From Bryoerythrophyllum caledonicum (lineage: Eukaryota > Streptophyta > Bryopsida > Pottiales > Pottiaceae): DNA of 64,000 bases. This document shows, one piece after another, positions 2,258 to 44,765 of this stretch. The position numbers were made by a program, and so were the translations under genes. Below the pieces are notes generated by a model. That model saw only the letters and a list, made by a program, of their open reading frames with translations. It did not search any database and was not told the origin of the DNA. Position 1 is the first letter of the stretch. Every line of letters begins with the position of its first letter. The stretch is from assembly GCA_963971425.1 (NCBI GenBank), contig OZ020517.1:27670668-27734667 (forward strand), written 5' to 3'.

Positions 2258-2372
2258 ATGTATAGTGTCTACTTTCAAGAGGGGGAAGTGGTTCCATGTT
2301 ATTGATCCTTTGTCCAGTGGACATCGACTTAGTGGTGAAACAAACAAACACTTTAATCATGTCTGCTTCATT
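2258..2372 (+). mobile_element. Degenerate copy of the LINE/SINE 3' module
   Basis: This matches the 3' untranslated module of the large retrotransposon at 12364-25180 (its minus-strand sense). It shares the order tagtgtctac, agagggggaag, the gtccagtggacat-like block and the cttagtggtg block. The terminal hairpin and TTC tail are eroded. It is the only copy seen in plus orientation. Confidence 0.6.
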
Positions 2373-9517: not shown

Positions 9518-10571
9518 AAGAAGAAGAAGAAGAAGAAGAAGAAGAAGAAGAAGAAGAAGAAGAAGAAGAAGAAGAAGAAGAAGAAGAAGAAGAAGAAGAA
9601 GAAGAAGAAGAAGAAGAAGAAGAAGAAGAAGAAGAAGAAGAAGAAGAAGAAGAAGAAGAAGAAGAAGAAGAAGAAGAAGAAGAAGAAGAAGAAGAAGAAG
9701 AAGAAGAAGAAGAAGAAGAAGAAGAAGAAGAAGAAGAAGAAGAAGAAGAAGAAGAAGAAGAAGAAGAAGAAGAAGAAGAAGAAGAAGAAGAAGAAGAAGA
9801 AGAAGAAGAAGAAGAAGAAGAAGAAGAAGAAGAAGAAGAAGAAGAAGAAGAAGAAGAAGAAGAAGAAGAAGAAGAAGAAGAAGAAGAAGAAGAAGAAGAA
9901 GAAGAAGAAGAAGAAGAAGAAGAAGAAGAAGAAGAAGAAGAAGAAGAAGAAGAAGAAGAAGAAGAAGAAGAAGAAGAAGAAGAAGAAGAAAGAAGAAGAA
10001 GAAGAAGAAGAAGAAGAAGAAGAAGAAGAAGAAGAAGAAGAAGAAGAAGAAGAAGAAGAAGAAGAAGAAGAAGAAGAAGAAGAAGAAGAAGAAGAAGAAG
10101 AAGAAGAAGAAGAAGAAGAAGAAGAAGAAGAAGAAGAAGAAGAAGAAGAAGAAGAAGAAGAAGAAGAAGAAGAAGAAGAAGAAGAAGAAGAAGAAGAAGA
10201 AGAAGAAGAAGAAGAAGAAGAAGAAGAAGAAGAAGAAGAAGAAGAAGAAGAAGAAGAAGAAGAAGAAGAAGAAGAAGAAGAAGAAGAAGAAGAAGAAGAA
10301 GAAGAAGAAGAAGAAGAAGAAGAAGAAGAAGAAGAAGAAGAAGAAGAAGAAGAAGAAGAAGAAGAAGAAGAAGAAGAAGAAGAAGAAGAAGAAGAAGAAG
10401 AAGAAGAAGAAGAAGAAGAAGAAGAAGAAGAAGAAGAAGAAGAAGAAGAAGAAGAAGAAGAAGAAGAAGAAGAAGAAGAAGAAGAAGAAGAAGAAGAAGA
10501 AGAAGAAGAAGAAGAAGAAGAAGAAGAAGAAGAAGAAGAAGAAGAAGAAGAAGAAGAAGAAGAAGAAGAAG

Positions 10572-10601
<30 letters not shown>
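9518..10601. repeat. (GAA)n trinucleotide array, about 360 units
   Basis: An uninterrupted GAA/TTC tract apart from one extra A near 9990, which shifts the phase of the triplet. Polypurine-polypyrimidine GAA arrays of this length can form triplex DNA (known from FXN intron 1 in humans and IIL1 in one Arabidopsis accession). The long reading frames through it are artefacts of the repeat. The exact length may be limited by assembly. Confidence 0.95.
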
Positions 10602-10605
<4 letters not shown>

Positions 10606-10700
10606 TATGAAGAAGTAAGTATGAAGAAGAAGAAGAAGAAGTAAGTATGAAGAAGAAGAAGAAGAAGTAAGTATGAAGAAGAAGAAGAAGAAGTAAGTAT

Positions 10701-10732
<32 letters not shown>

Positions 10733-10913
10733 TATGAAGAAGAAGAAGAAGAAGAAGAAGTAAGTATGAAGAAGAAGAAGAAGAAGAAGAAGTAAGTATG
10801 AAGAAGAAGAAGAAGAAGAAGAAGTAAGTATGAAGAAGAAGAAGAAGAAGAAGAAGAAGAAGAAGCAAGTATGAAGAAGAAGAAGAAGTAAGTATGAAGT
10901 AAGTATGAAGTAT
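10602..10913. repeat. Compound tail of the GAA array with GTAAGTAT interruptions
   Basis: About twelve units of GTAAGTATGAAG followed by a variable number of AAG triplets; one unit reads GCAAGTATG. The interruptions lie only at this side of the array, the usual polarity of array growth. Each GTAAGTAT on the plus strand also resembles a strong 5' splice site. Confidence 0.9.
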
Positions 10914-11570: not shown

Positions 11571-11718
11571 CAGAAGAAGAAGAACTCCGGTCCTCACTTA
11601 AGGGGGCCGGAGTGAATAAAATGTCTATTTGTTCCACTACTAAATCAATGTCCACTAGACATAGATTTAATACTATGGAACTACTCCCTCCTCTCAAGGG
11701 TAGACACTATGTAACCAG
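11571..11718 (-). mobile_element. 5'-truncated copy of the LINE/SINE 3' module
   Basis: Read on the minus strand it has gttacatagtgtctaccc, the agaggagggag block, the conserved gtctagtggacat-like block, a hairpin (CTCCGGCCCCC / GGACCGGAG) and a TTCTTCTTCT tail. It matches the 3' end of the LINE up to its actatgtaac, then departs. No target duplication could be seen. Confidence 0.7.
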
Positions 11719-12250
11719 AAATATGTGACCAATAACCAGTAACCATGGACCTAGGACCAAATTAGAGCCACTAGGCATATTTTAAGAAGATGATATGTGG
11801 AGAGTTCAGTGTGTGTTTTGGAAGGTTTTAAGAGGTATCATTCAATTTGGGGAGAGGTTGATTATTTTCAATTTTCCGTTTGTGAAGGAGAATGGACATC
11901 GCAGATTGGATAGCAATCGTGTTAATTTTTGTGAATGCCATTTTGATTTGATTGATGGAGATATCAAATGTTTTTTTCTACCACCCATTCAACTCCAAAT
12001 GAAGGTTCCTACTAGTCAGGATCCCTCACTTTTGGAAGGTACCTATGGATGGGCACCACCTAGGTCCTAAACATGGCAACACACGTTTAAAAACGCATAA
12101 CTAATTCACATTTCATAGGAAAAATATGAAACCACTTGGATAGAAATTGTTATCCTATTGGCTATCACTGAAAAATAAATTGGTTGAATTCTTTCCTCTC
12201 TCCATGTATGCACATTGCTTAAGTTCTCGGTTATGGGGGATTATATGTAG

Positions 12251-12363
12251 TACAATCAGCTCCCTTTAGAAAAGCATCTCATATAACAACAACCTCATCA
12301 TAAGTAGAGCCTTGGGGTCAAGATCATTCTTCTTATCATAACAACCATTTGCTATTACAACCT
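12251..12363. repeat. Left half of a small TIR element split by the LINE
   Basis: Begins tacaatcagctccct, whose inverted partner agggagttgactgta (13 of 15 matching) ends the right half at 25288. The half ends with attacaacct (12354-12363), which is repeated at 25181-25190 on the other side of the LINE. Confidence 0.6.
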
Positions 12364-12372
12364 CATTCAGAA

Positions 12373-12510
12373 GAAGAAGAACGCCGGTACCGAAGGGACC
12401 GGCCTGAATAAAGTGTCTATTTGTTCCACTACTAAGACCATGCCCACCGGACAAGGAATTAGTGAGTAGGAACTACTTCCCCCTCTCGAGGGTAGACACT
12501 ATGTAACGGG
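12373..12510 (-). promoter_or_regulatory. LINE 3' module with terminal UUCG-type hairpin and TTC tail
   Basis: On the minus strand the RNA would end with a stem GCCGGTCC / GGTACCGGC closed by a CUUCGG loop (12382-12402) followed by (TTC)4. The ~140 bp before it (tagtgtctac, ctcgagaggggg, gtccggtgggcatggtctta) recur in the SINE at 55408-55775 and in copies at 2258, 11571, 36066 and 41208. In LINE families with stringent template choice, such a shared 3' stem-loop is the site bound by the reverse transcriptase. Confidence 0.7.
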
Positions 12511-12650
12511 TAGCCAGAGACCCGCCAAGCAAACACCCAATCAACTAAACATCCATCAAACCAAACAAGTAGCCAAAAACACAAACAAACAAGCAGGAAG
12601 CCATGAATCCCAAGACCAACCAGTCAAGAAAAATCGAAGCGGGGGAAAAG

Positions 12651-13245
12651 TCAAGGAAGGTCTTGTGTATCGGGAAGGGCTTGATTGTTTTCAATTTTGC
12701 GTTTGTGTGGTAAAATAGACATGGCATATTGAGTAGCGATGGTGTTAATGTTTTTAAAGGTGTTTTTAATTGTATCAATGGGTATTCTGAAGGTATCTTC
12801 TAGAGTCTTTATAGATGGGATAAAGGTGGTGGCACGGGCGCCGGATGTGATTACAATAAGGGGGTCCACATTCCATCCGAGGGCGATGATGTCGTCAATA
12901 AGGGGTTGGTATTTATCTATTTTATTTTGGATTGTTTCCGGGGAAAATCTATCGTTGCAATATGTGAATTCAATGAATTGAATGGTGTAGTCTTGGTTGA
13001 TGTTATCGGGTGGTGGGTCATTGTATGGTAAGCCTTTAACACAGAGGATGTCTGGTTTGAGCCTAGCGTTGCAATGACATCTTTGGGTCATACACGAGCA
13101 TGGGAGTAGCCAAGGGGGGACTGTATTCTCTTGTGGATTATTATTATAAGTACCGGCGTTCATTACTATAAAACATCTTGATTTATTGTAGGAGGTGATT
13201 AGCTTTTGGATTTCCCATACCGCTTTATTATGTCTTTGTCGTACA
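12651..13245 (-). pseudogene. LINE ORF2 C-terminus: restriction-like endonuclease domain (own frame)
   Basis: From the first Met (13163) the frame gives 170 residues. It contains a cysteine cluster CSCMTQRCHC (residues 22-31), KPDIL (36-40), IEFTYCND (64-71) and KYQPL (84-88), followed by a hydrophobic strand LIVITSGAR. This order, (K/R)PD, then an acidic residue in a beta strand, then KY..L, is the signature of the restriction-like endonuclease of R2/NeSL/Dualen LINEs. The frame stays open upstream of the Met to about 13245 and reads RQRHNKAVWEI, also typical just before this domain. It is out of frame with the RNase H part by one base. The usual C-x2-C finger between the two is not visible, suggesting a deletion rather than a simple frameshift. 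Confidence 0.6.
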
Positions 13246-14250
13246 GAATTTGATGAGGTAAGTTATTTGCGAGTCTGAGATGATGGGGTTTTTCCAAAAA
13301 TTTGTAGAGAGTTCATTGTCTATGTCGTTATTGTTAGTCCATTTTTCTATGTTAGGAATATTTTCTGAAATTGTGTCAAGGTTGTTGTAGAGGTCTTGTT
13401 TTTTGAGATATTTGCCTAAAAATCTAATTGGGCCTTTGTCGGGGGTATCTTCCTTGGAAGGCCAATCTTCTTTTTGAAAGTAGTTTCGCGTAGCATGGAC
13501 ATGTTCGTGTGGGTCTTTGGCATTTTTGTGTCTTTTTTCTCGGCCTTCTTTTGCTAGTTTGTCTACTTGTTTGTTGCCATCAATGTTGGCATGTGCTCTC
13601 ACTTTGTGGAGGGTTGTGATTTGTGTACGGTTTTGTAACATTTGGACCATTGATGTTAATATGTTTTGGTCGGGGTGGCTATTGTGAAGGGTAGGGTGTG
13701 TTATTTGAGTGTTAAGTAGGTAGAGTGCATTTATACAATCGGTGAATATATGTACGGGTTCATCATTGTATTTTGTTGTGATGATTTGTAGTGTTTTGTG
13801 GATGGCCATGAGTTCTGCTCTGAGGATATTTTGTAGTCCATGTAGTCTTTTGGCTAGTTTAATTTCTTTGGTAGAATTATATATGCCATAGCCAGCTTTT
13901 TCTCTGCGCCAAGAGCTTGGGCTAATTTGTTCTGGTGGTTTAAAGGAGCCGTCGGTGTAATAACTGTATGTGGGGTTAAATTTTGGTGTGGTATGGGTTT
14001 GGTAGTCTGGAAGAGGGGGAGGTATGGCGGAGTAGTTTAATGTGTTGTTGACATAGTTTAGTTTTGACCAGTTTTTACTTTTTTTAACAGGGGTTTGTAT
14101 GGGTGTTGGTGGGGCCAGTTTTGTGTATAGTCGGTGTATGCTTAGATTGTCTGTTATGGAGGTAAGTTCCGCAAGTTGTTCTAGGGAACCAAAGGTTTTA
14201 TTTTGATGATGGACGCATAGTATTTGTAATGTAGATGGCTCTATTCGGGG
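13228..14250 (-). pseudogene. LINE ORF2 RNase H domain (frame-shifted segment)
   Basis: Continues ORF2 in the next frame after a homopolymer shift at 14251-14257. RNase H type 1 residues are visible: Asp in YYTDGS (about 13951-13953), Glu in LRAELMA, Asp in FTDC, His in VRAHAN and Asp in NKQVDKLAK, that is D-E-D-H-D in order. It would remove the RNA strand of the cDNA hybrid during target-primed reverse transcription. After the domain comes a linker (WPSKEDTP, RFLGKYLKK) and then the frame closes at 13228. Confidence 0.8.
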
Positions 14251-16396
14251 TTTTTTTAAGCTCGGGTGGAATAGTAGGTTCTTCGTATGGTATTGTGTTT
14301 GCTTCAAATAGTGCAATGATATGGGAATCTCGGAATGGGTTTGGATGGTGGTTGTTGTTTTGGTACCAGTTATTGTTCGGTGTGATGATGATTGTTTTTG
14401 TGTTATTTGGATCGTGTTTGGCGGCAAGTCTAGCCCAATGTATGGCTTGTTCCATGTCCTTCTCGTTGTGGGGGTGGGCTATGCCATTACCTGTCCATTT
14501 GTAGTCAAAGGCCTTTCCTAGGGATCCAAATATTTTGTCTCTTTCATAAGGTGAGTAGAATTTTTTTAGTTTGGTAGAACATGTGACCGGGGAAGAAAAA
14601 TATGATTGCTTGATATTAAAGGATGAGATCAGTGAGTCTAAAATGGGAGTGGGTATTGTGTATTGGGCATTTTTGAGGGGGTCAGTTTTTGATATTCGGT
14701 ATTTATACCTTTGGTAGAGCCATATTAGTTCGGTTTCAAAGGGTTGGGTCATTGGTTCGATGTTTGTAGGAGTTTGTAATTTTGTATTATATTGATTCCA
14801 TAGCCATTGGAGTCGGGTAACGGAGATGGTGTGTAAATGTCGGCCGTTCTCTTTGTATAGATGTGCTTGATTGTTATCTAATTGAATTGTGTTTGAGGAT
14901 GTAAGGATATCATTTTTGGGGTTGCATTCTGTTGTGTAGATGTTTAAGAGTGGAATAATTATGGGTGGTGTTACGGATCTTGAGTCCGAGAATTGTTCTT
15001 GTGGATGGTGGGCAAGGATGATATCCAAGTATATTTTGTTTTGGATCTTTTGGTAGTATTGTTTTAATTTTTCGGTGTTATGTGTGGAGGTATTGGTGCC
15101 GTGCCGTGGAAAAAGGTCTCTTTGGGGGAGCCATTTATTGTATGTATTATCATTGTGTTGCCATTGGCATAAATATTTTGTGTAGGTAGTTTGTAAGTTA
15201 TTTGTGTCTGTGTGTTGGATATGTTTATGGTTTACAATATTATTAATGGGGTATGTGGTAGGGTTTTTGGGGATGTATGTTGGGGGGCGGGGGTGGTGTG
15301 TATGTGGGGGGTTAGGGGGATTGGTTGGTGTGGGAATATTTCTTGGAATGATGTTATTGTTGAGGGTGATGAATGGATCTTTAAGTGTATGAGAGTATGG
15401 GTGTGTGTTGCAAGGAGTATGACATATAGTGGGGCATGATGGGTGGCAAAATAGTTGTTTAGCAACATTTAGGGCACTTTTGATTAGTTTAGATGGAGTG
15501 AAGTGGTAGGTTTTGAAGTCTACATTGTTCATGATGTGTGTACCGTTGGGTAAAGTAATTTGGTTTAGTTCAAAAATATTTTTTGAGAGGAGTTTTTGTA
15601 GAAGCTTTTGGGAGAGTTGGGCATTGAGTGTGTTATGATTTAATGTTTCTTGGTGCCATAGTATTTCTAGTGTTGTAGGATTAGTGAGGAAGTTCGGGAG
15701 CGTACTTTTAAGGTGGGTTTTAGCTATATGTTTTAATAAGAAGAATGTTCGTGTTATTGGTGATCTTATGCAGTCACTTTTTTTAATTCTTGGTATGTTT
15801 TCGGCGCCACCATATTGGGCAAGGACATAGTGAGTTAATCCAATATATATTTTCCCAAGCCTTCCTTTATCGTTTAAAGCATTTTGCAGCTGTTTGCCTA
15901 TACATCGGAAGTATGTGTTTTTGAGGGAGAAAGCTTCAAGTCCAAATAGGTTATGTGGTAGTTGAGTTATTGCGTTTGACATACATTTTGGTAATCCACA
16001 TATGGCTTTTTGTATGGCTATTATTTTTTTATCAAGTTTTTTGATAGCTGGCATAGAGTATGGTACACCGTAGAAACTGTATGCCACACCTGGACGTAGT
16101 ACGGTATCAACCATTTTAATTTTTTGTTTCATGGTGGCTCGACATGTTGTTAGTTCTTTGCATTGTTTGATGAGTTTCGTCGTTGTGGTGTGGATTTGGA
16201 TTTTCCATTTTAATGAGGGAACAAGGTTTGTGCCTAAGTATATGTATGGTTGATTTTGGTGTAGTATGGGGATCGGTTGATTGCGGTATTTGATGTTCGA
16301 GGCTTGCATTAGGGCTTTGAAAGTGGTTGGGTTCAATTTGGATTTGTTTGGGCATCCGGTAGCGGCACATTTTGGGACACCTACGTCCATACCGGC
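14251..16396 (-). pseudogene. LINE ORF2 middle: RT thumb and connection region after an in-frame TAG
   Basis: This lies in the same frame as the upstream reverse transcriptase part, from which only the TAG at 16397-16399 separates it. The junction reads YCK-stop-AGMDVGVPKC. Most LINE reverse transcriptases have Trp at this place, so the TAG is most simply a TGG to TAG change. It covers the RT C-terminal motifs (KC.ATGCPNKSK, YLGTNLVPSLKW) and a long basic connection. The frame breaks at the A7 run at 14251-14257 (minus strand), where six A would keep the reading frame into the RNase H segment. Confidence 0.75.
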
Positions 16397-19300
16397 CTAT
16401 TTACAATATCTATCAATTTTATTTAGTTGTATTTGGATTGATTTGATTTTGATAGTTATGGTGGCTAGGTCATCCGCGTATGCAGCAGAGTTTATTATGA
16501 CTTGTGATGTGCCAAAAGTGTACCTGTAATTGCCTCTTTCTAGCCATCTGAGTAGTGGTTCTAGAAATATAATGAATAGGTATGGGCTGAGGGTGTCCCC
16601 TTGTATAGTTCTTCTTTGGATGGGAATAGGTTTTGTTTTCCCAAAGTGTTCACCGGTATAACAAGTAGATGATTTAGAATAGATGTTTCCAACAAGTGTG
16701 GTTGCATCTTTTGGGTAACCTAGGTCCATCATTATTGTTAGAAGTCGGGCATGGTCTATTGAGCCAAAGGCATTTTTGAAGTCCACGTATAGTATGTATA
16801 TATCTTGGTTAGTAAACTTTGCGTCTTCTAGTGCGGCTATTGTAGTTTGTATTTGTCGTGCGGTACTTCTTTCTGCTCTAAATCCTTCTTGACTATCATG
16901 TAGGATTTTGAATTTTTCGCCGTATGAGGATAGTATGGAGGTGAGTGTACCGGTAAAGAGTTTGTATATTGTGTTAGCTAGTGCAATTGGTCTGTGGTTG
17001 GGTAGTATGGACGGATCGCCTTTTTTGTATAGTAAAATTGTTGTACTCAATTTCCATGAGTTTGGTATCTGTTTTTGTTTATAGCAGTGGGAGAAGAATA
17101 GAAATAATAGCTTATGAAATCTTGGAGGCATGTTTTTGAGTATTGAGTTTGATATGCGGTGTGGGCCTGGAGCTTTATTATTTCCAAGATTTTGCAGGCA
17201 TGTGTCGTATGTGGCTCTGCTGAGGTATTTATGTAGTGGAATTTCTGGTTCACCCCGTTTGTCAAGGGTATATCCGTCCAGGTCGTGCCATGGGTATTGG
17301 TGTACTGCACATGTGCATTCTATTGTATGTTGTGGTTGGTAATTACATGTTGGTATTGTTGGTCTATTGGTTTTTGTTTGTTGGTTAAATATTTCATTCG
17401 CAATATCTTCGGGGCTAGTTAGAATATTATTATATTGATCTGTGATACAATCCATTGGTGGGGATTCAAGGTTTTTAAAGACTTTTTTGTTAATTTTTTT
17501 GGGGCTGATTTCGTATAGTTGTCTATATTTTGAGATGGCTTTTTTAATGTTTTCTTTGGTATATTTTGTGATTATTTTCCGCGCTTGTATGTTGGAATTT
17601 TTTGCAATTAGCGCGATATCTTTTATCCATGTATCCTGGGGAAGGTCCGGAGGTGGCGGGGTAGGGATTTGGATGTATTGTAGAGTTAATAGTTCATTGT
17701 TTATGGGGTGGTTTCGCCACTGAGGGTTGTTTTTTACAATTCTAATGGTTTTGCGTATGGTATGGTATGTGATAAGGTGATGTTTCCAAGTTTTAGAAAG
17801 TTTGCGGGGTAGGTATCCGCCTTGTTGAGAAGTTCTATTTGTCATTTGGGGTATTGGGTGTGCTCTATAGGTTTGTTCTAGTGTATCAGAGATTTTATTG
17901 ATGAGTTTGTCTAGGGTGTGGCATGCTTCTTGCCATTGAGCTTGTGTTAATTGACTATTGTTTTCAAGAGTGTCTATGAGGGAGTCTATTTGTACGGAGT
18001 TTTCTTCGAAGAATTTTGTGTTGAATTTTTCTATGTTGGTTTTTGGGATGGAGTTGAGTATGCGTATAGTGTCTTTGTTTAGGATTATAGTTCTACTAAT
18101 TAGTGTGTTATTTGGGATGTGCAATTGCACGGGTGAATGGTCCGAGTTGAGAATAATATCTTTGTTTGTTGTGGAGGTGTATTGTGTATTGTTGTTTGTA
18201 TTTATATAGAATCCATCTATTAGACTCCAATCGCTATAATTATAGCGACCTTGTCTAGAGAATTGTGTATCGGTATTGATATAAGTGAAGTTTAAGTGTT
18301 CTGTGAAGCGACGCCATTGGTAATCAATGTTTTGAGGGGGGGTGTGATGGTTTCCATTTTGGTGGCCAATTAACGCTATGTCTCTGTTGAAGTCTCCGCA
18401 TAATAGGTATGTATGATTGGGATTATTATTAATTTGGGATGTAATAGTGTTTTGTATATCTAAGAGAAATCTAGTATCATCGGGGTGGGATGTCATATAC
18501 ATGTGAAAGATTAACCACGGTTGTAGTGGGTGGTTAGTGGTTTTAATTATTTGAATGTATGGTGATATGTGCATTGGGATAGGGATTTTGTTGATATTGC
18601 CTGGGAATGTATATTTTTTGTGTATTAATGTGAGTAGGCCACCTTGGCCCGGAGTGTATGGTCTCCGTTGTTGCATACATCTTGTAAGTATATGTGTATT
18701 GTTAAAGATGAGTTTATAGTTTTGAAATATATTTTGTATATATTTTGTGGATTTTGTGGCGGTTAGTTTTGTTTCTTGTATAGCTATGAGGGCCGGCGGT
18801 GTGTCTGTGTTTGTGACTAATGTTTGTAAGCTAGGAAGGGCAGTGTTTAGTGAGGACGCATTCCATGTGATTATGTATGTTTTTTCTTGGTTTGATCTAA
18901 TGTTTTGATATTGAGGAGGGATGTAGGGAAGAGGTGGGGGTGGATGGGTGTATTCTGGTATAGGATCAAGACATTTTAGTGATTCATTTATGAGGTTGTT
19001 AGGGAGGTAAGGGAATTTTAGTTTTATTGTATCATTTGAGGGTGGTATGTCTTGACTATGTAAGAAGTCGTATAATCTTTTATGTATTGAGTTCTCGTGG
19101 TTTATAATATTTTGATTGTCTACTAGGAATTTAGTATAAGGGTGTGGAGTGTAAATGTGTCGTTCTGGTGGGTTTTGTAAGTTTAGTAGAGTTTCTAGAA
19201 GTGTATTGGTCCATGCTATTGTGTGCATATTTTGTGGATTTAATAGATGATTACATTCATCTATGTTTGGATGAGTAGTGATTATTAGTGCATAAAGAAT

Positions 19301-19519
19301 GTGGGGTGGTGGGTGCGTATTTTTTTGTTGTATGTATTGGGCAATGTTTGGGTGTGTAGTGTTATGTGTATGGTGTAATGTATGTGTGTTTTTAAAAAAA
19401 GGTGCAAAGGGTTTTGCAATGTGTCTGTATTCCGGTTGTAGTTTTATGGTATTAGGTATGAAGAATACTTTGGCATTTTTCTTATGTGATGTAGGGTGTC
19501 TTTTTAGTATATTTGGCAT

Positions 19520-19546
19520 GGGTCCGGGGTTGGTTTCTATGTCTCC
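19520..19546 (-). other. 2A-like motif 3, canonical
   Basis: Encodes GDIETNPGP followed directly by MPN, after a leucine-rich stretch (KLLLLLD). This fits the consensus D-(V/I)-E-x-N-P-G-P of 2A/StopGo peptides, at which the ribosome skips the Gly-Pro bond. Known in several LINE ORFs of trypanosomes and animals. The residues after it (MPNILKRHPTSHKK) nearly repeat those after motif 1. Confidence 0.8.
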
Positions 19547-19924
19547 GTCTAAGAGTAGTAGTAGTTTGTGATATGTATGTTTAGTGTTGTATTTTAGAGT
19601 TTTTATTTTTTGTATAGTAAATATTTGGGGTATTGTTATGTTATTGAAGATTTGTTTGTTTGAGGGGGAGTGGGTGTTGATATTTTGTATGTGGATAATG
19701 TGTTTTATTTTTATAGTGGATGTATTTGTATTTGTCCTTATCATTTTTTGTGTCCATGTGTTTATTTGCGTATTTATTTTTGTTTTATTAATGTTGTATA
19801 GGTGTGTGTATGTTTGTTTGTATATTTTTTTGGTAGTGTATGTGCGTGTATGTGTGTTTGGTTTTATGTTGGTGTTCATACTTAGTATTATTGTTTTGTG
19901 GTAGATGGATTTTTCGTTGGGCAT

Positions 19925-19951
19925 GGGTCCCGAGTTGGTTTCTACATCTCC
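19925..19951 (-). other. 2A-like motif 2, one substitution
   Basis: Encodes GDVETNSGP then MPN, preceded by NLLMLS. The essential NPGP is NSGP here (Pro to Ser, a C-to-T type change), which would be expected to abolish skipping. Confidence 0.7.
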
Positions 19952-20194
19952 GCTTAACATTAATAAGTTTTTATAGTGTAAGGGTTTGTAGTGTTGATTT
20001 TGTGTTGTTGATTTGTGTGTGTATTGGTGTTTGTCAATAAGTTGTTGATGTGATATGAGTGTGATTTTAAGAAGAGGGGCAAATTTTTGGGTGGTGTGTT
20101 CGTATTCGGGTTGTAGTTTTACGGTATTTGGTATGGAATGTGTTTTGGCCTTCTTTTTGTGCAAAGTGGGGTGTCTTTTTAATACGTTTGGCAT

Positions 20195-20221
20195 TGGTCC
20201 CAGGTTAGTCTCTATGTCCCC
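20195..20221 (-). other. 2A-like motif 1, one substitution, upstream of the first Met
   Basis: Encodes GDIETNLGP then MPNVLKRHPT. NPGP is NLGP (Pro to Leu, again a C-to-T type change). No in-frame Met precedes it before the stop at 20366-20368. A 2A motif only makes sense if translation comes from upstream, so ORF2 probably once began further 5'. Confidence 0.65.
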
Positions 20222-20313
20222 TCCAAATCTTATTTTGTAGTAGGTGGGTTTTTTGTTTTGTTTCGGAATTTTTTGTTTTTGTATGTGGTTTTGGTATTGA
20301 ATTTTTTGTTTAA

Positions 20314-21224
20314 TTGGTTGTATGTATTTGCCTTTGTATGTGTGTGTGTGTATGTGAGTATTTCTTTAATGGCGTATGGTTATCTTTGTATATGTGTGTG
20401 TTTGTGCAACTTTTTTTTGATTTTGTATGTTCTTTTATTTTGGTTTTTGTATCTATATTCGTGTCAATATTTGTGATATTATGTTTATCAATATTTGTAC
20501 TATTGTTCTTATTAGTATTTATATCGGTTTTTTTATTTATGTTTGTATTAGTATTGGTATAAGTATTCGTTTTAGTATGCTTGTCTGTGTACGTACCAAT
20601 ATATATACCAATATATATAGGTATACGTATCAGTATACATAATAGTATATGTATCACTATACATACTAGTATAAGTATCAGTATACGTATTGAGGTACGT
20701 ATCAATATATGTGCCAACATACGTGCCAGTATACGTACTAGTGTATTTATTAGTATATGTATTAGTGTTTGTAATAGTATTTGAACCAGTAGAAATACTA
20801 GTATATGTGGCAGCGTATGTACCAGTATTTGTACTAGTATGTGTGTTATATTTTGTACTAAATGTTGTATAGTATAGCGATAATTTAAGTTTTGTGTATA
20901 TTTTACAATGTATCCTTTTGTATATATAGTAATTATTTGTATAGTCTTGAGAGTAGTCTTTGAGGTGTTCGGTATAGTATTTGTATTGAATGTAGTATTG
21001 AATACAATATATATTTTTTGTACGGTACCCTATGTGGTATAGTCTACGTATTCTAGTGATGTGTATGTTTTGTGTATAGTTTTTAGTATGGTGTATTTGT
21101 TTTGTATTTATGTACTTGTATGCTAGTATGTATTTAATTATATTTCTAAATAAATACACTACTCCGTATCGTATTTTGTAGTATGCTATAGAAGAGATGT
21201 GTTTTACTATGTAGTCCTTGGAGC
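20314..21224 (-). repeat. LINE inter-ORF spacer with degenerate TATAC-type repeats
   Basis: About 20570-20870 is a run of imperfect 6-12-bp units around GTATACGT/ACTAGTATA, and 20310-20560 a related TTTGTATT/ATATTTGT tract. Overlapping minus-strand frames stay open through it (about 21228-20572, 20720-20310, then the ORF2 frame), each one frame apart in the same sense. The predicted product is Thr/Tyr/Asn-rich and of low complexity. I read it as a possible ORF2 N-terminal extension in which repeat slippage has shifted the frame, not as a separate gene. Confidence 0.5.
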
Positions 21225-22868
21225 TCACATGTTTGGCTGATTTTCTTCAATTCTTGGATTGTTGATTCTTCCCGTGAATGCTCTCATACTTTGGAGGGTG
21301 GCTAACATTGATTCTTGGATGCCTTCCATTTGAGTCTTCAATTCGTTGTGTAGTTTGTCGGTGTACTCCTTGCTCTCTTGTCTTAGTTTCTTGTTGTTCT
21401 CTTCCAATAACTCCACCATGTCCTTCTTGGTGATGTGCTCATTCTTCTCTTGCATGTTGAACGTGGTGATGGTGTTGACAATTGCGGTGTTGATGTCTTC
21501 AAACCCAAACTCCTTCACTTGTTCGGCGGTGGGAAGGTCTACCCCCTCTAAGCTTCTTCTATGTGGTGCGAAATCCACTAAGTTCCCCCCTATTTCGTGA
21601 GTCTTCTTCACAAAAGTCCTATACACTATTGGGTTAGCACAAAGGACGTTTGCTCTACCATTGTGGTGAGTGCCATTGTCCCTATGAAACCAAATAGAGC
21701 GCACATTAGTACCTCCCATGACTTTGTATATTTCATGGGTAGTGTTTGCGAGGTCCAAACGAATAGGAAGGGGAGATAAGGTGAGTGTTAAAGCATCCTT
21801 TCAGGCTTTGGTTTCGAAAATACCTTTTGGTCCTTTGGTGTCAAGGACTTGTCTTGCTTCCAAGACTTCACTTCGCATGGTGATGTGGTGTGCTAATATT
21901 TTCTTCACTTGTTGGGGGGTAGTGGCAATGACAAAGGCATGTGAGTCTCCAATCATTTTTTGGACGCCCGAGATCTCAAACTTGTAGCCACGATGGAAGC
22001 TATTGCCAAGTATCTCCTTAAACACTACTTGAGCAGAAACTCCTATCAAAGTGTCACACTTGATCTTCACGGAGAGGTTAGATCCTTTGGCAATGCCATG
22101 ATAGGACTTGCAGACTTTTCCAACTACATATTCATCATCAATGGTTAGAATAAAAGGCCTAAGGCCTTTGAGTAGCATTAGCCCATCAATCTCCGGTTTG
22201 AGGAAATGCAACTTAATGTTACCGGCCCAAACCCCTTTAGTTTTCCCATTCTTAATGCTTAAGCATTGGATAGCAATTGGATCGATAAGGTCTTCCCCTA
22301 AGGCTATGTTCATTTTCTTTAGTCTTTCTACAACCATTTTTTTAACTACATCATGCATGAGTGGGTTTTTAGGTGTTTCGAAGAAGATGGCAATGTGAAA
22401 GTCAAGGGAGAGGCCAGAATTCTCACTAGTTTTGATGTCAACCGGGACTTGGGTGATGTTGAAATGCTGGCCCATTCCATCGCTTGTTACCATGGAGTAA
22501 AGTAGTTGTGGAATTCGGGGGAAGGCCACTCTTGCGTTGCATACCTCCATAGCTTCCTCCGCCTTCATTCCACGTGTGACCATGTCCTCTATGGATTCAC
22601 CGCTGTACAATTCTTCGGCACCGTCCTCCAATGCCAAGGTCTCTATGTCCTGGAAACCCAACCAAAATTTGAACTTTGGTGAGTCTGTTTTGTGTAGTGA
22701 CTTACCTTTTTGCGTGATCGAGACTTTGCTCTTCTTGTGGCTGTTGGCTTCCGTTGTACCCTTTGATGGTGCTTTGATGGGACTTTCCTCCAGGCCTTCC
22801 ATGTCGACGCTGCTGCAGCTAGTCCTTCTGGAGCTCCTTGCCATGCTGGCTGGGTAGCCGTTTGCCAC
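21225..22868 (-). pseudogene. LINE ORF1, interrupted by one in-frame TGA
   Basis: The frame is open for 355 codons, stops at TGA (21801-21803), and continues in the same frame for about 190 more codons to 21225. Codon use and content run straight through the TGA, and TGA is what a methylated CGA (Arg) becomes by deamination. First possible ATG is 22844 (MARSSRR...); the frame is open further upstream. No zinc knuckle is seen. The middle (WAGNIKLHFLKP, RSIWFHRDNG) could hold RRM-like strands, and the last ~60 residues (EENNKKLRQESKEYTDKLHN) look like a coiled coil, as in many LINE ORF1 RNA-binding proteins. Function is inferred from position. Confidence 0.6.
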
Positions 22869-23628
22869 TGGGGCGTCCCGTATGGTTCTGTCCTCCGCCT
22901 CTCCTACAGTTCGTTCGGCCCAATTCAGGTGGAGCCCCGCTCTCGCCGAGCAGGGGAGGCCCGTATAAATCTTGTTCGCGCATTCTGCTCTCGCCCGGGG
23001 CTGTGGCTTCGGGGGGTCGCTCCTCGTAATCGCCCGGGGTTGTGGCTTCGGGGGTTCGCTCCTCTACTCTCGCCCGGGGCTGTGGCTGCGGGGAAATGCT
23101 CCTGCTGACGTCCACTTGGTCTCGCTGCCTCCCATTAGCCGCCTCGCGATTCCTGATCTTGTTGTGTATGTTTCGCGTTCTTGGTCTTGGTGCACTTGGT
23201 TCTTCGTTTCGCGTACTCGCTCTTGACCTCGCTGCTCCTGATTGTTTGTTTTCGGTCTTTGCTTTTTCAGACTTCTTTTTCTTGGTCTTGTTGCTGCTCG
23301 TTCCTGATCTTGATGTGTCTTGGTCTTGTTGTGCTGGGTTCTCTCGCTTGGGCTTGTTGCTGCAGCCTCTTTCTCGCGCTCTCTTGCTTCCTGCCTCTGT
23401 TTGTGGTCTCGCGGCTCGTCGTCGACTTTGTCTTGGTTTCGGTCTTCTTGGATGGCCTCTGCGGTTCTTCGGCTTTGTCTTACTTGTGCAGAGTCTCTTA
23501 TTTCCTTGACAGCTACTTCTTGCTTGGTTTCGTCCTCTAGCTCTTTCCTCTATTGGTCCTCTTTGGTGTTTACGTAGTCTTGATTCGTGTTGGTCGTGTC
23601 GGTGTCTTCGTCTTTGGGCTGGCGGCAA
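22819..23628 (-). CDS. Basic, disordered reading frame at the 5' side of ORF1
   Basis: 269 codons, GC-rich, rich in Arg/Lys/Glu/Pro (RRRHRHDQHESR, KKKKSEKAKTENK), no fold expected. Three direct repeats of about 35 bp at 22990-23085 encode PEATxPGD/GE units. It overlaps the start of ORF1 in another frame, so it is either an upstream ORF, the frame-shifted N-terminus of ORF1, or non-coding leader that happens to be open. Confidence 0.3.
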   Translation of the reverse strand: MPPAQRRRHRHDQHESRLRKHQRGPIEERARGRNQARSSCQGNKRLCTSKTKPKNRRGHPRRPKPRQSRRRAARPQTEAGSKRARERGCSNKPKRENPAQQDQDTSRSGTSSNKTKKKKSEKAKTENKQSGAARSRASTRNEEPSAPRPRTRNIHNKIRNREAANGRQRDQVDVSRSISPQPQPRARVEERTPEATTPGDYEERPPEATAPGESRMREQDLYGPPLLGESGAPPELGRTNCRRGGGQNHTGRPSGKRLPSQHGKELQKD

Positions 23629-25180
23629 TGTTTGCTGATTTTCTTCACTCCCCGTGCAGGTTGGCTACGGCACCACTGTCCCAGGCGCTTTTGGGTCGAA
23701 TCTCCTTGGTACTGGCTGCAGCTTAGGATCCAGACAAGATTGTTTCGAAGCACAGGTACGTACTGCCTTACTTTGTCTACTGGCTGTTTACGCTGTTTTA
23801 TTTTTTGTTTTACTAGGGTTTTGTTAGGGTTTTTACTTTTAGTGTAGGTATACATCTACTTCTTGTGTTTCTGATGTTATGAACTGCTGCTATGGATGCT
23901 ATGGATTCAGTTCTATTAATCTCGTGGTTATGATGTACGTTATGTTTCTTCTCAGCATGAATATATGAACAACGGTAATTGAGGGTGTTAGAAAACTTAC
24001 CTAGATTTGTTGTTGTGGAGTGTGTGCATTCGGGGTTAGGCGAGATGCTTCCATCTGGCGTGTGTTGGTGCTGGTCTTTATTTTGCTTCGGTCTGCTTTG
24101 TAGGTGCGGTTGAGGTCTTGTACTGATGTACTTCGTTGCCTTGTAGGGTTTTGTCTTGCTCGCGGCCCTCAACAGATTGCGTGTTTGCCCTCTGATCGTG
24201 GACTTCAAATCCGCAGAGTCGGGGTCTCTGCTGCGACGCAGCGGTACGGCACACAATCATGTATTGCTGCAGAGTCCGTTCACTTGTGGAGATACTGAAT
24301 CTCCTGTTAGAGGTCTAGACAATGTGCCTATGTCGGTGTAAGCTAGGTGGATGGTGCTTAGCCTATATGACTTCTTATTGATATTGCGTTGGACAGATTG
24401 GCATTTCCTTACTTGAGCGCTAACGTTGTGTTTGCGAGCAAATTTTTTGTGTGTGAGAGTGCTGTGTTCTTCATGGTCAGGTGTGTGCACTAGTGAGTAT
24501 ACTGTTGGTGTTGATGTGAGTTTAAAGTGTACTAAGAAGCTGCAAGCAAAACACACTAATACTAAGATGAGAAAAAATGAAAAGAAGGTGTGTAGGTAAG
24601 AAATAGCTTGATATGATGCGCGATAGCTCCTGGACCCAAGTTTGCTGGTTCTTCCTCCAATGTTATATGTTGTGGCGCTGGCTCGGAGGGTGTGGGGCTT
24701 GTGGGCGGCTTGCAGATCCGGAACCTCTCACAGATTAGGGCGGTCAGGTATGTTGGTACTTTGAAGAGTAGATCTATGTCCAACACGAGTCCCCAAGCTT
24801 TCAGATCTAAAACTCTCCACAAAATCCTACTCCAAAGTACCTCGATCTCCTCACTAAAACCTCAGATCTGGAGCTTGTGAGCCTTTCCAGCACAGCCTGC
24901 TTCCTAGGCCTAACCCTATAATCAAATCAGATGCAAAATAGGGGCTCTCAACAAGGTCCAGCACTCCTTGTGGCCTATGTTGTTTGATTTGACACTAAGT
25001 CCCGCACTCCCCCTCACCAGAAAATACGGAGCTCACTCAGCCTTCATCGCACGGTATCAAACCCCCAACCTCATTCATAATCAAATCCCTTTCCGAAGCC
25101 ATGCTTTTTGTGCACTTCCAAGTCGTCATCACTCCCACCAAACTAAAAAAAAGCCATCACCATTCATCCAATATTCCGAC
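23629..25180 (-). other. LINE 5' leader (inferred)
   Basis: It lies between the first long frame and the candidate 5' end at 25180. No domain is recognised and short frames are present on both strands. Its assignment to the element rests on the target duplication at 25181-25190. If that duplication is chance, this would be flanking DNA. Confidence 0.4.
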
Positions 25181-25288
25181 ATTACAACCTTCACCCCCCC
25201 CTTTCCAATATAACAACGGCCCATTATAGCAGCTTCTATACATAACAGGCATAACCAATGAGGCTGTTATAATAGGGAGTTGACTGTA
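25181..25288. repeat. Right half of the small TIR element split by the LINE
   Basis: Starts with the duplicated attacaacct and ends agggagttgactgta, inverted to the left end at 12251. Joined to the left half it would make an element of about 210 bp. Confidence 0.55.
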
Positions 25289-25865: not shown

Positions 25866-26074
25866 TAACCCTTAAACGTTAGTCGGGAGTCACATATTTT
25901 ACTCTGTGGAATACAACTTTTTTATTAAAGTTTAGCAAGCACCTTACACCTTTGGATTGAAGATTCTTCAACTAACATCTTTCATTTGGAGGTCATTTCA
26001 GTATCTCAACCCTACGACACCGTACATGTAGAATACTGTGGCCACCAGTGACACCTTTTGTTGCTTAAAGGTTA
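25866..26074. repeat. TIR family E copy 1
   Basis: Begins TTAACCCTTAAACGTTAGTC and ends near TTGCTTAAAGGTTA, about 210 bp. The internal block acatgtagaatactgtggcc is shared with copies 2-4. It lies inside the TFIIF-beta remnant between blocks 1 and 2. Confidence 0.6.
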
Positions 26075-26197
26075 CGAGCTTCATCTCCTTCCACTGGGGG
26101 GCTGGGGTTCTTAAAAAGAAGACGAGGTATAATAAGTTTCTAGGTTTGTGGCACAAGTTTATTGATGTGGTTAAGATTAACTTTGATTATTGATGTA

Positions 26198-26430
26198 CTA
26201 AAAACGTTAGTCAGGAATCGTATATATAGGCATATATTTTTCTCTGTAGGACACAAAAATGTACTAAAGTTCATCAAGACTTACACCGTGACGGATTGAA
26301 GATTCTTCACCTAACATGTTTCATTTGGAGGTCATTTGATACAGTCTGAACCTTATCATGTTCAAATACGACACCATACATGTAGAATACTGCGGCCACT
26401 AGTGGCACCTTCTGACGTTCAAGGGATAAT
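26198..26430. repeat. TIR family E copy 2
   Basis: Begins AAAAACGTTAGTCAGG and ends TTCTGACGTTCAAGGGATAA. It has the same internal block (catgtagaatactgcggcc) and lies in the same TFIIF-beta interval as copy 1. Confidence 0.6.
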
Positions 26431-26962
26431 CGGATACGGTCTTCTACCGTTCGACATTATTTTCTGGAGTAGCATCTGGATATGTTTGCAAAGGCCGAAA
26501 TGTGGGTCTTGTTTTTGACAGGACAACAAGAAGAAGATGCTAGTAACCAACACCGTGGAACTACCTGAGGGGAAAAGAATTCGAAGAGACAGAGCAGAGT
26601 TGGAGGCTATTGTGTTTAAGCTTTTTGAGCGGCGTCCCAATTGGGCTTTGAAGCAGCTAGTGGAAGAAACAGATCAGCCTGCGGTAAGTGTCATATCGGG
26701 GTTGATGGTGTCAAAAGCGCAAAATATATCTGGATCTCTATGCAAAGTATCTTACTGGTTGCAATTGGTTTTTTTTTTTGGGTTAGAATTTCAGCTCTAG
26801 AGATATGACTTTGTATCCATGCTTTGTGTACAGGCTTTTTAAAAAGAGGTTCTCAATGACCTCTGTATTTACAACAAAAGAGGTGCCAATCAAGGTACCT
26901 ATGAGCTGAAACCGGAGTACCGGCGGAATGAGAAGGAGGAGGATGTCAAACCAGCAACGTGA

Positions 26963-35329: not shown

Positions 35330-37440
35330 CCTATGTAGATGCCAGTTCTAAGGTTTTAAAAAGGAACCTCTGAAGGAGCTGCCAACATTGGCACCCTTCT
35401 AGATGGCCTCTTCAATTTTCATTAAAGTAACCTCTAAAAGTAGAGCCGACATTGGTGCCTCTTAAGAGGTCCCTTTATATGTATATTAGAGGAACCTCCA
35501 AAAGGGCAGCCAACATTGGCGCCTTCATAAAAGACCCCTTAAATGTATATTCAGGAACCTTTAAAAGGATCGCCGACATCTTCCCTCTCCAAGAGGACCC
35601 CCTAAATGTATATCAAGTGAACATTCAACATGGCAGCCGACATCGGCGCCCCTCATGAGAATCCCATCAATATAAATTAACGGAACCTCCAAAAGAGCAG
35701 TTGATATTAGCGCTCTTTTAAAGAGCCCCGTAAATGTATATTAAGGGAACCTCCAAAATGGCTGTTGATATTAGCATTTTTCTAAAGGACCCCGTAAATG
35801 TATATTAAGGGAACCAAAAAAAGGGTAGCCGACATCGGCGCCCCTCTAGAAGACCCTTTAAATTTATGTTAAGGGAACCTCTGAAAAGGCAACCGACATT
35901 GGCGATCCTCTAGAGGACCTCTTCAATGAATACTAAGGAAATCTCTAAAAGAACAGCCGACATCGGCTGCCTCTAGAAGACCTGTTAAATATATACCAAG
36001 GAAATTTCTAATAGGGCAGCCGACATCGGCTGCCTCTAGAAGACCTCTTAAATATATATCAAGGATGATGATAAAGAACACCGGTCTCGGAAGGACCGGC
36101 ATGAATAAAGTGTCTATTCGCACCACCACTAAGACCATGCCCACCAGGCAAGGAATTAATATACCAAGGAAATCTCTAAGAGGGCAGCCGACATCGGAAG
36201 CCTCTAGAGGACCTCTTAAATGTATACCATGGAAATCTCTAAAAAGGCAGCCGACATCGGCTGCCTCTAGAGGACCTCTTAAATGTATACCAAGGAAATC
36301 TCTAAAAGGGCAGCCGACATCGGCTGCCTCTAGAATGTGCAACACGCTCTGGAAAATTTGAAGATATTTCCAAAATGGTATTACAATTTATTATTGGACA
36401 TTGTACGGATGAGTTATCAATGGATGAAGTTTTGAATCTCATAACTTCATCCGCAAATAACTCATTCGTACAATGTCCAATAATAAAGTGTAGTACCATT
36501 TTGGAAATATCTTCAAATTTTCAAGAGCGTGTTGCACATTCTAGAGGCAGCCGATGTCGGCTGCCCTTTTGGAGGTTCCCTTATTATTCATTGAAGGGGT
36601 CTTGTAGAAGGGTGCCAATGTCGGCTACCCTTTTGGAGGTTTCCATAATATACATTTAAGGGGTCCTCTAAGAAGTCGCCGATGTTGGTTGCCCTATTGG
36701 AGATTCCCTTCATATACATTTTAAAGGTCCTCTTTGTGGGCGCCGCTGTCGGCTGCTCTTTTAGAGGTTTCCTTGATATACATTTAAGGGGGTCTTTTGA
36801 AGGGCACCAATGATGTCTGCCTTATTGGAGGTTTGTTTGATAAAAACTGGACGGGCTCTCTAAAGGGATGCCATTGTTGATAGCTTTTTGCGAGGATTGC
36901 TCCAAATATTTGGACGGGGGGCTTTTGGAGGAATGCCAATGTTGGCATCTCTTGTGGAGGTTCCCTTAATAAATATTTGAAGGGCCTTGCAGTATAGTTT
37001 TGTTGTTGGTACCATTTTTAAAGATGTTTTTTTAAACATTGGAGGAAGATTTCTTTTTAGAGGTACCGATGTTGGCATCTATTTTGAAGATTCTCTTTCT
37101 AAACGTTGAAGGGGTCACCTAAAGAGGTATTAATGTCGAGATTCATTTCATTAATAAACATTAAAAATCATGTAATGGGATTTTGATATTAGCGCCTCTT
37201 GTAGAGGTTCCGCTTTTAATATTGGACAAGTGCTCTGGAGCAGTATCGATGTCGGCACCTTTTATGTAGGTTTCTTTTTTAAATAGTGTAAGGCCCTTTT
37301 TAGGATTGTCCATGTGGCCATCCGCTTTGAAGGTTTCATTTTTAAACATTGAAAGGGCTCCTTAGAGGAATGTTCATGTTAGTACCCTTTAGAAAGTTCA
37401 TTTTTCAAATATATGAAGGGCCTTCAAGAAAAGTATCAAT
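35330..37440. repeat. Giant palindrome of ~64-bp tandem repeats, each unit containing a palindrome
   Basis: Left arm to about 36335: around 14 direct units (for example starting at 36187, 36251 and 36315) with GGCAGCCGACATCGGCTGCC, itself self-complementary, then CTCTAGAGGACCTC and aaatgtataccaaggaa. Right arm from about 36542: the same units reverse-complemented. The centre (36336-36541) is a unique inverted repeat (tgtgcaacacgctct ... agagcgtgttgcaca; ggacattgtacg ... cgtacaatgtcc) with its turn at about 36440. Outer units are more diverged than inner ones. Confidence 0.8.
36066..36159 (-). mobile_element. 5'-truncated LINE/SINE 3' module inserted in the tandem array
   Basis: Minus-strand sense: gcctggtgggcatggtctta, hairpin CCGGTCCTTCCGAGACCGG, short tail. 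Flanked by an 11-bp duplication, tatatcaagga (36055-36065) and tataccaagga (36160-36170), the hallmark of target-primed insertion. Confidence 0.75.
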
Positions 37441-40775: not shown

Positions 40776-41207
40776 TAGAGGTTGAAGAGGTCCGAGAAGA
40801 TGGTATTCCCATTGAATGTGTGCCATCTAATCATGAGAATGCTCGTGCCTCATTTGCACTAGGAGGTAGGCTCCACGGCACTAACAACGCACTAACTACC
40901 ATGTGTTCAAATAATTAGGTTGGTACTCACACAACCATGTTGCATATTAAGTTTTTAAAAAGTATGAAGTTAAGTATCTACATTGGCATGGATGAGAATA
41001 TTCATCTCAATCATACATACCCAACAATCATTTAATAGTGGAGCAGTTTAGCTTCTCTATATTTCTACCACTACCTACCTTGTTCTACTATTCATGGCAT
41101 GCAACAAAGTTATGGAGTGTGCCTTTAGGAACACTTTATAACCTCTTTATCATTGTAGATACAATCAACTCCCTCTACAAAAGCGTTGTTTGTCTTACCC
41201 AAATTTA

Positions 41208-41288
41208 AGAAGAAGAAAAACGCCGGTCCCCGAAGGGGCCGGCGTGAATGAAGTGTTTGTTCGTTCCACCACTAAGACCATGCCCACC
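41208..41288 (-). mobile_element. 5'-truncated LINE/SINE 3' module with exact target duplication
   Basis: Minus-strand sense: gtgggcatggtcttagtggt, aacactTcattcacg, a perfect hairpin CGCCGGCCCC-UUCG-GGGACCGGCG and a (TTC)n tail. Bounded by an identical 11-bp duplication ACCCAAATTTA at 41197-41207 and 41289-41299. The cleanest example of the 3' hairpin and of the insertion mechanism in the window. Confidence 0.85.
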
Positions 41289-43221: not shown

Positions 43222-44765
43222 TAGTGACCTTCAAAATTGTCCCAATGTTTATCGTTTGAAATTTTGGTGAATCAACAAACAATGGTTGCATGTTGAAGTG
43301 ACATAGAAACTTTGTAATTACTTCCTATTATCAGTAAGGTAATTGAGGTACAAGTCTTGCCACTTGTCTCTACATGCATGTGCATGGATTGAAGCTTCAG
43401 ATATTTCTTCTTCATTGGGACAGTTTTGAAGGTCCATGTCAATAAATCATATGAGCATAGCAATTGAAGAGTAGATGCATTGTAAGTTGTTTGGTTTGTG
43501 TTTTGTTGCATGTACTGTACATATACATCTATTCGTTGTTCTTGTGTTTTTCTTCAAAGGAGAAAATGGTGAGAACATTGTTGCAAGGGAAGCAACAAAA
43601 TGTGCTCTCTTTACTTTAGAAAGGCTATAGTGTGAGAGAGATGGCAAAGTCTTTGCATGTTGGAAAGTCAAGTGTACAGAGGCTTTGTAAGAAGTATTTG
43701 CCAGATGCAAATCTTCTAGGTGGAGGTAGACCACACAAATTGAAAAGTCAAATGGAGTGGTCTTGTGTAAGTAGTTTAACTAGAGGAAAGGTGTTGAGTT
43801 CAAGAGAAGCTACTAAACAAGTGAAAGAAGTCTTTGAAGTACAAGTGAGTGAAGTTACTGTATGTTGTGCACTTTGTAGAACAGGTTTGCAATCACATGT
43901 GAAAGTGAAGAAACCCCATTTGTCAAGTAAAAATATTAGGTCTTGTTTAGAATTTGCCAAGAAGTATGAACATAGGACCATTGATGACTGGAGTCACGTG
44001 ATATTTTCATATGAGAGTAAGGTTACCAAATTTTCTTCAGATGGAACAATTTGGTGTTGGATTTGTGATCCACTAGAACTATCAGAGCGGACTGTTATTC
44101 TGACAGTTAAACATGGAGGTGGTTCTGTGATGATATGTGTATACATGGACCTGGCATGATACATAGAATTGAAGGTCGCCTCAATCAACATGGTTCTCAA
44201 AACATATTGGAGGAACATCTACATGATACAATTAATAAATATTTTTTAGATGCATCAGAAGTCATATTTCAACAGGATAATGCACCCATAAATAGTAGTA
44301 CTAGCATGAAACAATGATTTTCTAAGCTGTAATTTAGTGTCTTATCTTGGCCTCGTCAATCACCAGATTTGAATCCTATAGGAAACCTGTGGGCCATTTT
44401 GAAAAGGAAATTAAATCGATATGATTTACCTCCAAAGGGAATACTTGAATTATGGTCTCGTATAGAAGAAACCTTCTCTTCTATCACTATTGATGATTGC
44501 AATATTGAAGGCCAAAGGAAAATGGACAAATTGGTGAAGAATTTGCATGTTGGACCTTCAAAATTGTCCCAATATATAGAATAGCTTTAGAATTTTTTCT
44601 CTTTTAAAGGAGTGCTTAGATTTTGTTGGAATTTTTTTAAGAAACAAGTACACTGTATGTACTATTTCAATAAATTTACTACTTTCCATTCCATGATTTT
44701 TTCTTTCCTACAATATTTCCTGAATAGGACAAATATAAACATTGGGACAGTTTTGAAGGTCACTG
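43222..44765. mobile_element. Tc1-like transposon, 1544 bp, inactive
   Basis: The 30-bp TIRs (43222-43251 and 44736-44765) start TAGTGACCTTC / CAGTGACCTTC and differ at two positions, both C/T. TA flanks both ends (43220-43221, 44766-44767). The core gaccttcaaaattgtcccaat recurs internally in opposite orientation at 43414-43434 and 44553-44573; centre-to-centre spacing from the outer copy is 188 bp at both ends. Confidence 0.85.
43566..44584 (+). pseudogene. Tc1-like transposase remnant
   Basis: Starts MVRTLLQGKQQ with a TAG after 17 codons, then GYSVREMAKSLHVGKSSVQR (helix-turn-helix) to SYESKVTKFSSDG, where the first catalytic Asp (usual SDESK) is Tyr. A frameshift near 44128-44140 leads into HGPGMIHRIEG and FQQDNAPIN (second catalytic Asp kept). 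Two stops follow, then NPIGNLWAILKRKL, where the usual Glu of NPIENLW is Gly. The C-terminus LHVGPSKLSQYIE is encoded by the right internal repeat. Clearly non-functional. Confidence 0.85.

Follow-up and report, generated by a model that had tools for sequence, protein, structure and literature searches.

To our knowledge, long interspersed nuclear elements (LINEs) with two endonucleases are known only from algae, and the reverse transcriptase (RT) of the Dualen/RandI group is placed between the groups with a restriction-like endonuclease (RLE) and the later groups with an apurinic/apyrimidinic-type endonuclease (APE). Dualen/RandI elements are stated to encode an APE together with a PD-(D/E)xK-like endonuclease (PMC3636483, PMC4640811) and to carry an RNase H (PMC4640811); they are reported from relatives of Chlamydomonas (PMC8226300), and their position has been taken to show that, as LINEs evolved, the restriction-like nuclease gave way to the APE (PMC4640811). 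L1 and RTE are the only LINEs named for land plants in the available text of a 2022 review (PMC9033089). Here we describe a LINE on the minus strand of a 64,000-nucleotide stretch of contig OZ020517.1 (assembly GCA_963971425.1, positions 27,670,668 to 27,734,667; hereafter the window). This element is a full-length but broken copy, and with a probability of roughly 0.8 we read it as a now defective member of a young, high-copy non-LTR family with a Dualen-like architecture and two endonucleases.

The preliminary description of this locus had placed an APE, a YADD RT, an RNase H and a KPD...E...KY nuclease in a single minus-strand series, and all of these motifs are indeed present on that strand in the claimed order. 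In Pfam scans, the frame at 16397-20365 contained an APE (PF03372, E = 1.1e-5; score 25.8 bits, cut-off 24.5), in which the catalytic motifs WNA, QET, GDFN and SDH can be read, and an RT (RVT_1, E = 3e-21); the frame at 13228-14478 contained an RNase H (PF00075, E = 5.9e-14). Among other profile libraries, PHROGs returned the RNase H, and exonuclease III came up weakly in NCBIfam, with nothing further below E = 0.02. An ORF1, 2A motifs and a PCIF1-like domain, all absent from the preliminary description, were also identified. The features of the element, from its 5' to its 3' end, are as follows:

12370-25065, minus strand: whole LINE, 12,696 bp, 5' end at 25065 and 3' end at 12370, placed by the position of the duplication and by likeness (by eye) to the 5' end of another copy, on contig C1
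25066-25077, minus strand: 5' target-site duplication TGAATGAGGTTG, 12 bp
21225-23063, minus strand: ORF1 frame, interrupted by a TGA at 21801-21803
20195-20221, minus strand: first 2A-like motif, GDIETNLGP, degenerate
19925-19951, minus strand: second 2A-like motif, GDVETNSGP, degenerate
19520-19546, minus strand: third 2A-like motif, GDIETNPGP, canonical
18131-18874, minus strand: APE-type endonuclease, Pfam match at 18353-18874, with the remainder up to the SDH motif added by eye
15965-17206, minus strand: RT with YADD, interrupted by a TAG at 16397-16399
15110-15241, minus strand: weak chromodomain-like segment (PF00385, E = 0.033 in the whole frame and 0.0024 in a fragment, below the gathering score)
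14372-14776, minus strand: PCIF1-like domain (PF12237, E = 5.8e-12, and 1.3e-12 in a fragment, above the gathering score)
14468-14479, minus strand: AHPH, in place of the NPPF of PCIF1
13540-13965, minus strand: RNase H (PF00075)
13237-13240, minus strand: junction of a deletion of ~150 bp, with the CCHC finger of other copies missing
12651-13262, minus strand: putative C-terminal restriction-like endonuclease segment, KPD...E...K...KY, in a 203-residue frame
12383-12403, minus strand: 3' hairpin GCCGG...CCGGC
12370-12381, minus strand: TTC/CTT tail
12358-12369, minus strand: 3' target-site duplication TGAATGAGGTTG, 12 bp

The inactivating lesions are two in-frame stops (the TGA in ORF1 and the TAG in ORF2), one frameshift in the interval between the PCIF1-like domain and the RNase H, and the deletion between the RNase H and the C-terminal segment, where 2 nt remain in the window compared with ~154 nt in other copies, which hold the CCHC finger at this site. 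The ORF1 frame matched no Pfam family above cut-off (TCTP, at E = 4.1e-4, was below its own), and a related frame was recognised by eye in the C1 copy.

Uninterrupted copies and the two nuclease regions

The 437-Mb genome containing the window (894 contigs) was searched four times. The search with the C-terminal segment produced 8,133 first-look candidates, which are not equivalent to copies, and 150 were scored; all 150 matches, the window's own included, were at least 90% identical, and 15 of them fell within open frames that measured exactly 2809 codons (all frame lengths being counted from stop to stop). With PF12237, 2,614 first-look candidates, again not to be read as copies, gave 150 scored matches, all above cut-off and 33 within frames of exactly 3087 codons; no match was found in 14 control genomes, a weak control in which the genomes were not identified. 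A further search yielded 1,933 first-look candidates, of which 40 were scored and 41 matches listed. Collectively, the many near-identical copies and uninterrupted ORF2s uphold the earlier suggestion of recent activity. Two contigs (C5 and C13), which may simply be small, appeared in no match list of three of these searches.

One copy of each frame length was analysed, P0002 (2809 aa) and P0003 (3087 aa), both on contigs other than that of the window. Each contains, in a single ORF2 frame, a 2A site, the APE motifs, the RT, the chromo-like segment, the PCIF1-like domain, the RNase H motif (PF00075 at E = 1.5e-11 in P0002), a CCHC finger and the C-terminal segment; the C-terminal motifs CPIC...H...C, KPDIL, IEFTYC and NK..KY were read in the P0002 sequence and located by script in P0003. 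These frames bear directly on the idea that two unrelated elements are nested or fused in the window and that the nucleases come from separate elements. The window copy is split across several frames, and some of the fetched copies adjoin pieces of others, as such a chimera might be; nevertheless, all parts occur in single open frames of 2809 and 3087 codons at two loci on other contigs, and further frames of both lengths were listed. Since uninterrupted copies exist, this explanation is already refuted and we regard it as extremely improbable.

The RT was compared with the PDB, where the best three matches were R2 proteins (100.8, 86.1 and 85.6 bits), followed by human L1 ORF2p (63.4 to 61.2 bits). 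Judged by these scores, the RT fits neither the R2 nor the L1 group cleanly.

P0002 and P0003 are identical at 2290 of 2775 aligned residues. The ratio of non-synonymous to synonymous substitution (dN/dS; simple NG86 counts, Jukes-Cantor corrected and given without confidence intervals) between them was 0.084 for the APE, 0.056 for the RT, 0.144 for the PCIF1-like domain, 0.147 for the RNase H, 0.077 for the CCHC-RLE region and 0.017 for the chromo-like segment (56 codons), with 0.325 for the N-terminal leader. A second comparison, with a copy on contig C2 that has diverged further and in which the APE was not covered, gave 0.057 (RT), 0.093 (PCIF1-like), 0.116 (RNase H) and 0.084 (CCHC-RLE). 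Because dN/dS is low in both nuclease regions, both look used.

A CCHC finger followed by a C-terminal KPD...E...K...KY is the R2-type order. In an alignment of P0002 with six copies 65-93% identical to it (A4), which aligns readily, E163, K179, K182 and Y183 were invariant in all seven members. Of 20,000 shuffled versions of the segment, 4 matched a loose KPD...E...K...KY pattern that had been built on R2-type motifs after the segment had been seen. As to the comparison with R2 and the structure prediction proposed in the preliminary description, motif order, the position of the CCHC finger, conservation and dN/dS agree with a restriction-like nuclease; no R2 or other supporting match was found in the PDB for the segment or for the profiles A2 and A4, and the single-sequence AlphaFold model was of unusable quality. 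This low-confidence model places strand-strand-helix-strand around the conserved residues, which is not counted as proof. Since an R2 profile match is missing and the model is poor, the PD-(D/E)xK fold is proposed here from motif order, the position of the CCHC finger and conservation, and is not proven.

Several observations weigh against the dual-endonuclease interpretation. Within the C-terminal segment, the aspartate of KPD is not invariant (L011 and L059, decayed members of the seven-copy A4 set, read PN), the sole PDB chain listed in one profile search was an unrelated PTS protein (E = 0.42), and the AlphaFold model had a mean predicted local distance difference test score of 36.5. On the APE side, the PF03372 match is barely above cut-off, and Pfam reported the domain in neither whole P0002 nor whole P0003, its reports being confined to the window frame and a fragment of one locus (L064). 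The RNase H went unreported in whole P0003 (3087 aa), though its motif is present, and the chromo-like segment fell below cut-off in every Pfam scan. The comparison with the C2 copy is partly saturated, with dS above 0.8 in every domain, and there the chromo-like segment gave a dN/dS of 0.87 in an alignment that looks poor. Finally, two PDB chains labelled 'Reverse transcriptase-like protein' (8gh6 and 8ibw), which we take to be R2 of Bombyx, scored 53.8 and 49.6 bits against the RT, below L1 ORF2p.

The PDB result, the poor model and the variable aspartate would all suit a LINE with an APE only, in which the C-terminal segment binds nucleic acid and merely resembles a restriction-like nuclease. 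The R2-type succession of CCHC, KPD, E and K...KY, the four residues invariant in A4, the rarity of the pattern among shuffles and the dN/dS of 0.077 all argue against this alternative, which we consider quite unlikely. The proposal of a Dualen-like LINE with two endonucleases is well supported by the two uninterrupted ORF2s, the low dN/dS of both nuclease regions and the many near-identical copies, with its fold assignment unproven and its original description incomplete.

A PCIF1-like domain between the RT and the RNase H

The most surprising part of the element is the PCIF1-derived domain (PCIF1_WW), which was not expected between the RT and the RNase H. A profile of eight copies (A3) matched PCIF1 of zebrafish (E = 0.0013) and of human (E = 0.058). 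NPPF is the catalytic motif of PCIF1, and in the alignment with the human protein it stands opposite HPHN. Of 43 loci, 23 were readable by a regular expression and none contained NPPF (22 AHPH, one AHPY); likewise, it was found in none of 12 loci that included subfamilies 56-61% identical (10 AHPH, one ADPH, one APPH), with one locus common to both sets. The domain is conserved beyond the motif. The loss of the catalytic motif from a domain that has been kept across such divergence points to a changed role.

Alternatively, the motif may have changed while the domain went on working as an RNA adenine methyltransferase, as conservation beyond the motif and low dN/dS would allow; the uniform lack of NPPF in both sets, with AHPH in 22 and 10 members respectively, makes this unlikely. 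As to what a changed role might be, we tentatively suggest, at somewhat less than even odds, that an actively amplifying dual-endonuclease LINE captured the cap-adenosine methyltransferase fold of PCIF1 and rebuilt its active site (NPPF to a conserved HPH), the former methyltransferase now serving the LINE as a reader of its own capped RNA or as an enzyme with a new activity. The domain links an RNA-cap enzyme family with retrotransposon replication.

Compared with the cap-adenosine methyltransferase PCIF1/CAPAM itself, the element shares the PF12237 region above cut-off and differs in its retrotransposon polyprotein setting and in the replacement of NPPF by H-P-H-N. Among the titles and abstract openings listed in searches that did not extend to subscription papers, preprints or Repbase, none described a PCIF1 domain within a retrotransposon. 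The nearest precedent found is the inactive adenine methylase carried by DIRS1 retroposons (PMC3537659); these are tyrosine-recombinase elements and not LINEs, and the domain is not called PCIF1-like in the accessible part of that source. When viral contigs were scanned for the PCIF1-like, RT and C-terminal segments, none yielded a relative.

Ends of the element and neighbouring sequences

Relative to the preliminary extent of ~12.8 kb, the 5' end is shifted inward by 115 nt on the evidence of a 12-bp target-site duplication (25077-25066 and 12369-12358). When both strands of the window were scanned, TGAATGAGGTTG was confined to two sites (25077 and 12369) and abutted the tail, which sets the limits of the element at 25065 and 12370. 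By eye, the 5' end at 25065 also aligns with the start of the C1 copy, which is full-length (12,627 bp) and has a 13-bp duplication of its own. The duplication chosen earlier, AGGTTGTAAT (10 bp, with the 5' end at 25180), is exact and likewise occurs only twice, at 25190 and 12363, and proved second best: it is separated from the tail by six bases and would set the 5' end of the element 115 nt beyond the start suggested by the C1 copy. A shared 10-mer arose by chance in 47 of 2,000 shuffles; a second control, on random 3.5-kb stretches of the window (223 and 347 of 4,000), was spoiled by the inclusion of the true sites.

The 3' end is supported by a related truncated copy and three more 3'-end copies in the window:

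11573-11978, minus strand: 5'-truncated related copy with duplication TGAATGGGTGGTA, ~400 bp from the element
36074-36158, minus strand: 85-nt 3'-end copy inside a 63-bp tandem array
41205-41288, minus strand: 3'-end copy with duplication TAAATTTGGGT (by eye)
2262-2359, plus strand: diverged 3'-end copy

Four of these five 3' ends in the window, all except the diverged 2-kb copy, carry the CCGG...CCGG hairpin, and three (the element and the 11.5-kb and 41-kb copies) end in TTC repeats. Duplications of 11-13 bp were recognised in five copies, some by eye and that of the 36-kb copy mismatched. Evidence for conservation of the hairpin is moderate. Among twelve distinct stems, from 22 regular-expression matches and without a shuffle control, substitutions affect both bases of pairs 2, 6, 8 and 9. 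On the other side of the balance, pair 6 is unpaired in four of the 12, the count from the five sequences was equalled in 52 of 500 shuffles, and single-fold z-scores were -1.20, -1.92, -1.43 and -0.70.

The 3' flanks of 30 loci (L013-L042) were compared by eye, 27 of them being readable (the pattern missed L020, L032 and L039). Tails and 3' flanks varied among the 27, and since the flanks differ no strict target is evident. Target-site specificity had been raised by TGAATGrGG, common to two neighbouring insertions, and was rejected on the same difference in 3' flanks.

Around the element, a 1.37-kb AAG/CTT microsatellite (450 units, 9518-10888) lies ~1.5 kb from its 3' end and has the same unit as its tail. 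A short repeat (TACATGTAGAATACTGTGGCCAC...) at 25954-26428, which also occurs in the 3' flank of L042 beside the C1 insertion, perhaps represents a family of miniature inverted-repeat transposable elements. Tandem arrays of 63-64 bp occupy 35360-36834, one of them interrupted by the 85-nt LINE copy with an imperfect 12-bp duplication (by eye). A Tc1-like transposase fragment lies at 43620-44159 (plus strand; PF01498, E = 1.7e-7). An 881-codon frame with TPR and protein kinase regions (58181-60826, minus strand), likely a host gene, and a likely TFIIF beta subunit exon (26519-26800, plus strand; PF02270, E = 2e-6) suggest, along with the view taken in the preliminary description, that the host is plant-like.

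Proposed replication and comparison with known systems

The window copy, P0002 and P0003 each contain one canonical 2A motif of the StopGo form (D/G/C/N)(V/I)ExNPGP, as given in PMC12846837. In the window copy, the 2A-bearing stretch at the start of ORF2 (19323-20221, minus strand) is repeated, with three 2A-like motifs.

From the 3'-anchored copies, their 5' truncation, the 11-13-bp duplications and the conserved 3' hairpin we infer target-primed reverse transcription. A transcript would give rise to an ORF1 protein, presumed to bind RNA, and to an ORF2 polyprotein, from which the 2A/StopGo site probably releases a low-complexity leader. The RT would recognise the 3' hairpin and the CTT-repeat tail and copy the RNA at the target. 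Opening of the target may fall to the APE, to the C-terminal restriction-like nuclease behind the CCHC finger, or to both, producing 11-13-bp duplications with no evident sequence specificity; the RNase H would then remove the template. The PCIF1-derived domain, with NPPF lost and selection kept, is proposed to bind the capped 5' end or the element RNA and not to methylate it. Because the family has so many near-identical copies, and both of its nuclease regions a low dN/dS, a putative division of labour between two endonucleases in one LINE becomes directly testable.

Among known systems, plant L1 LINEs with RNase H have APE, RT and RNase H in common with the present element; they are not known to carry a C-terminal restriction-like nuclease. 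The R2 group (R2, NeSL, CRE, Hero) provides the best three RT matches and the order of CCHC and KPD...E...K known from R2; it differs in lacking an APE, present here, in having a single RLE, and in that no strict target site was seen for our element. Dualen reportedly contains a cysteine protease domain (Kojima and Fujiwara, 2005), and no Pfam peptidase family was found in P0002 or P0003 at E = 1. As this trait was not recovered and may not define the whole clade, we use the label 'Dualen-like' and not Dualen. The likeness to Dualen/RandI consists in an APE upstream of the RT and an RNase H, both found here; the C-terminal segment is a candidate restriction-like nuclease by motif order, position behind CCHC, conservation and dN/dS, with no R2 match in the PDB. 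The PCIF1-like domain, the weak chromo-like segment, the 2A site and a plant-like host, in place of relatives of Chlamydomonas, set the present element apart from that group.

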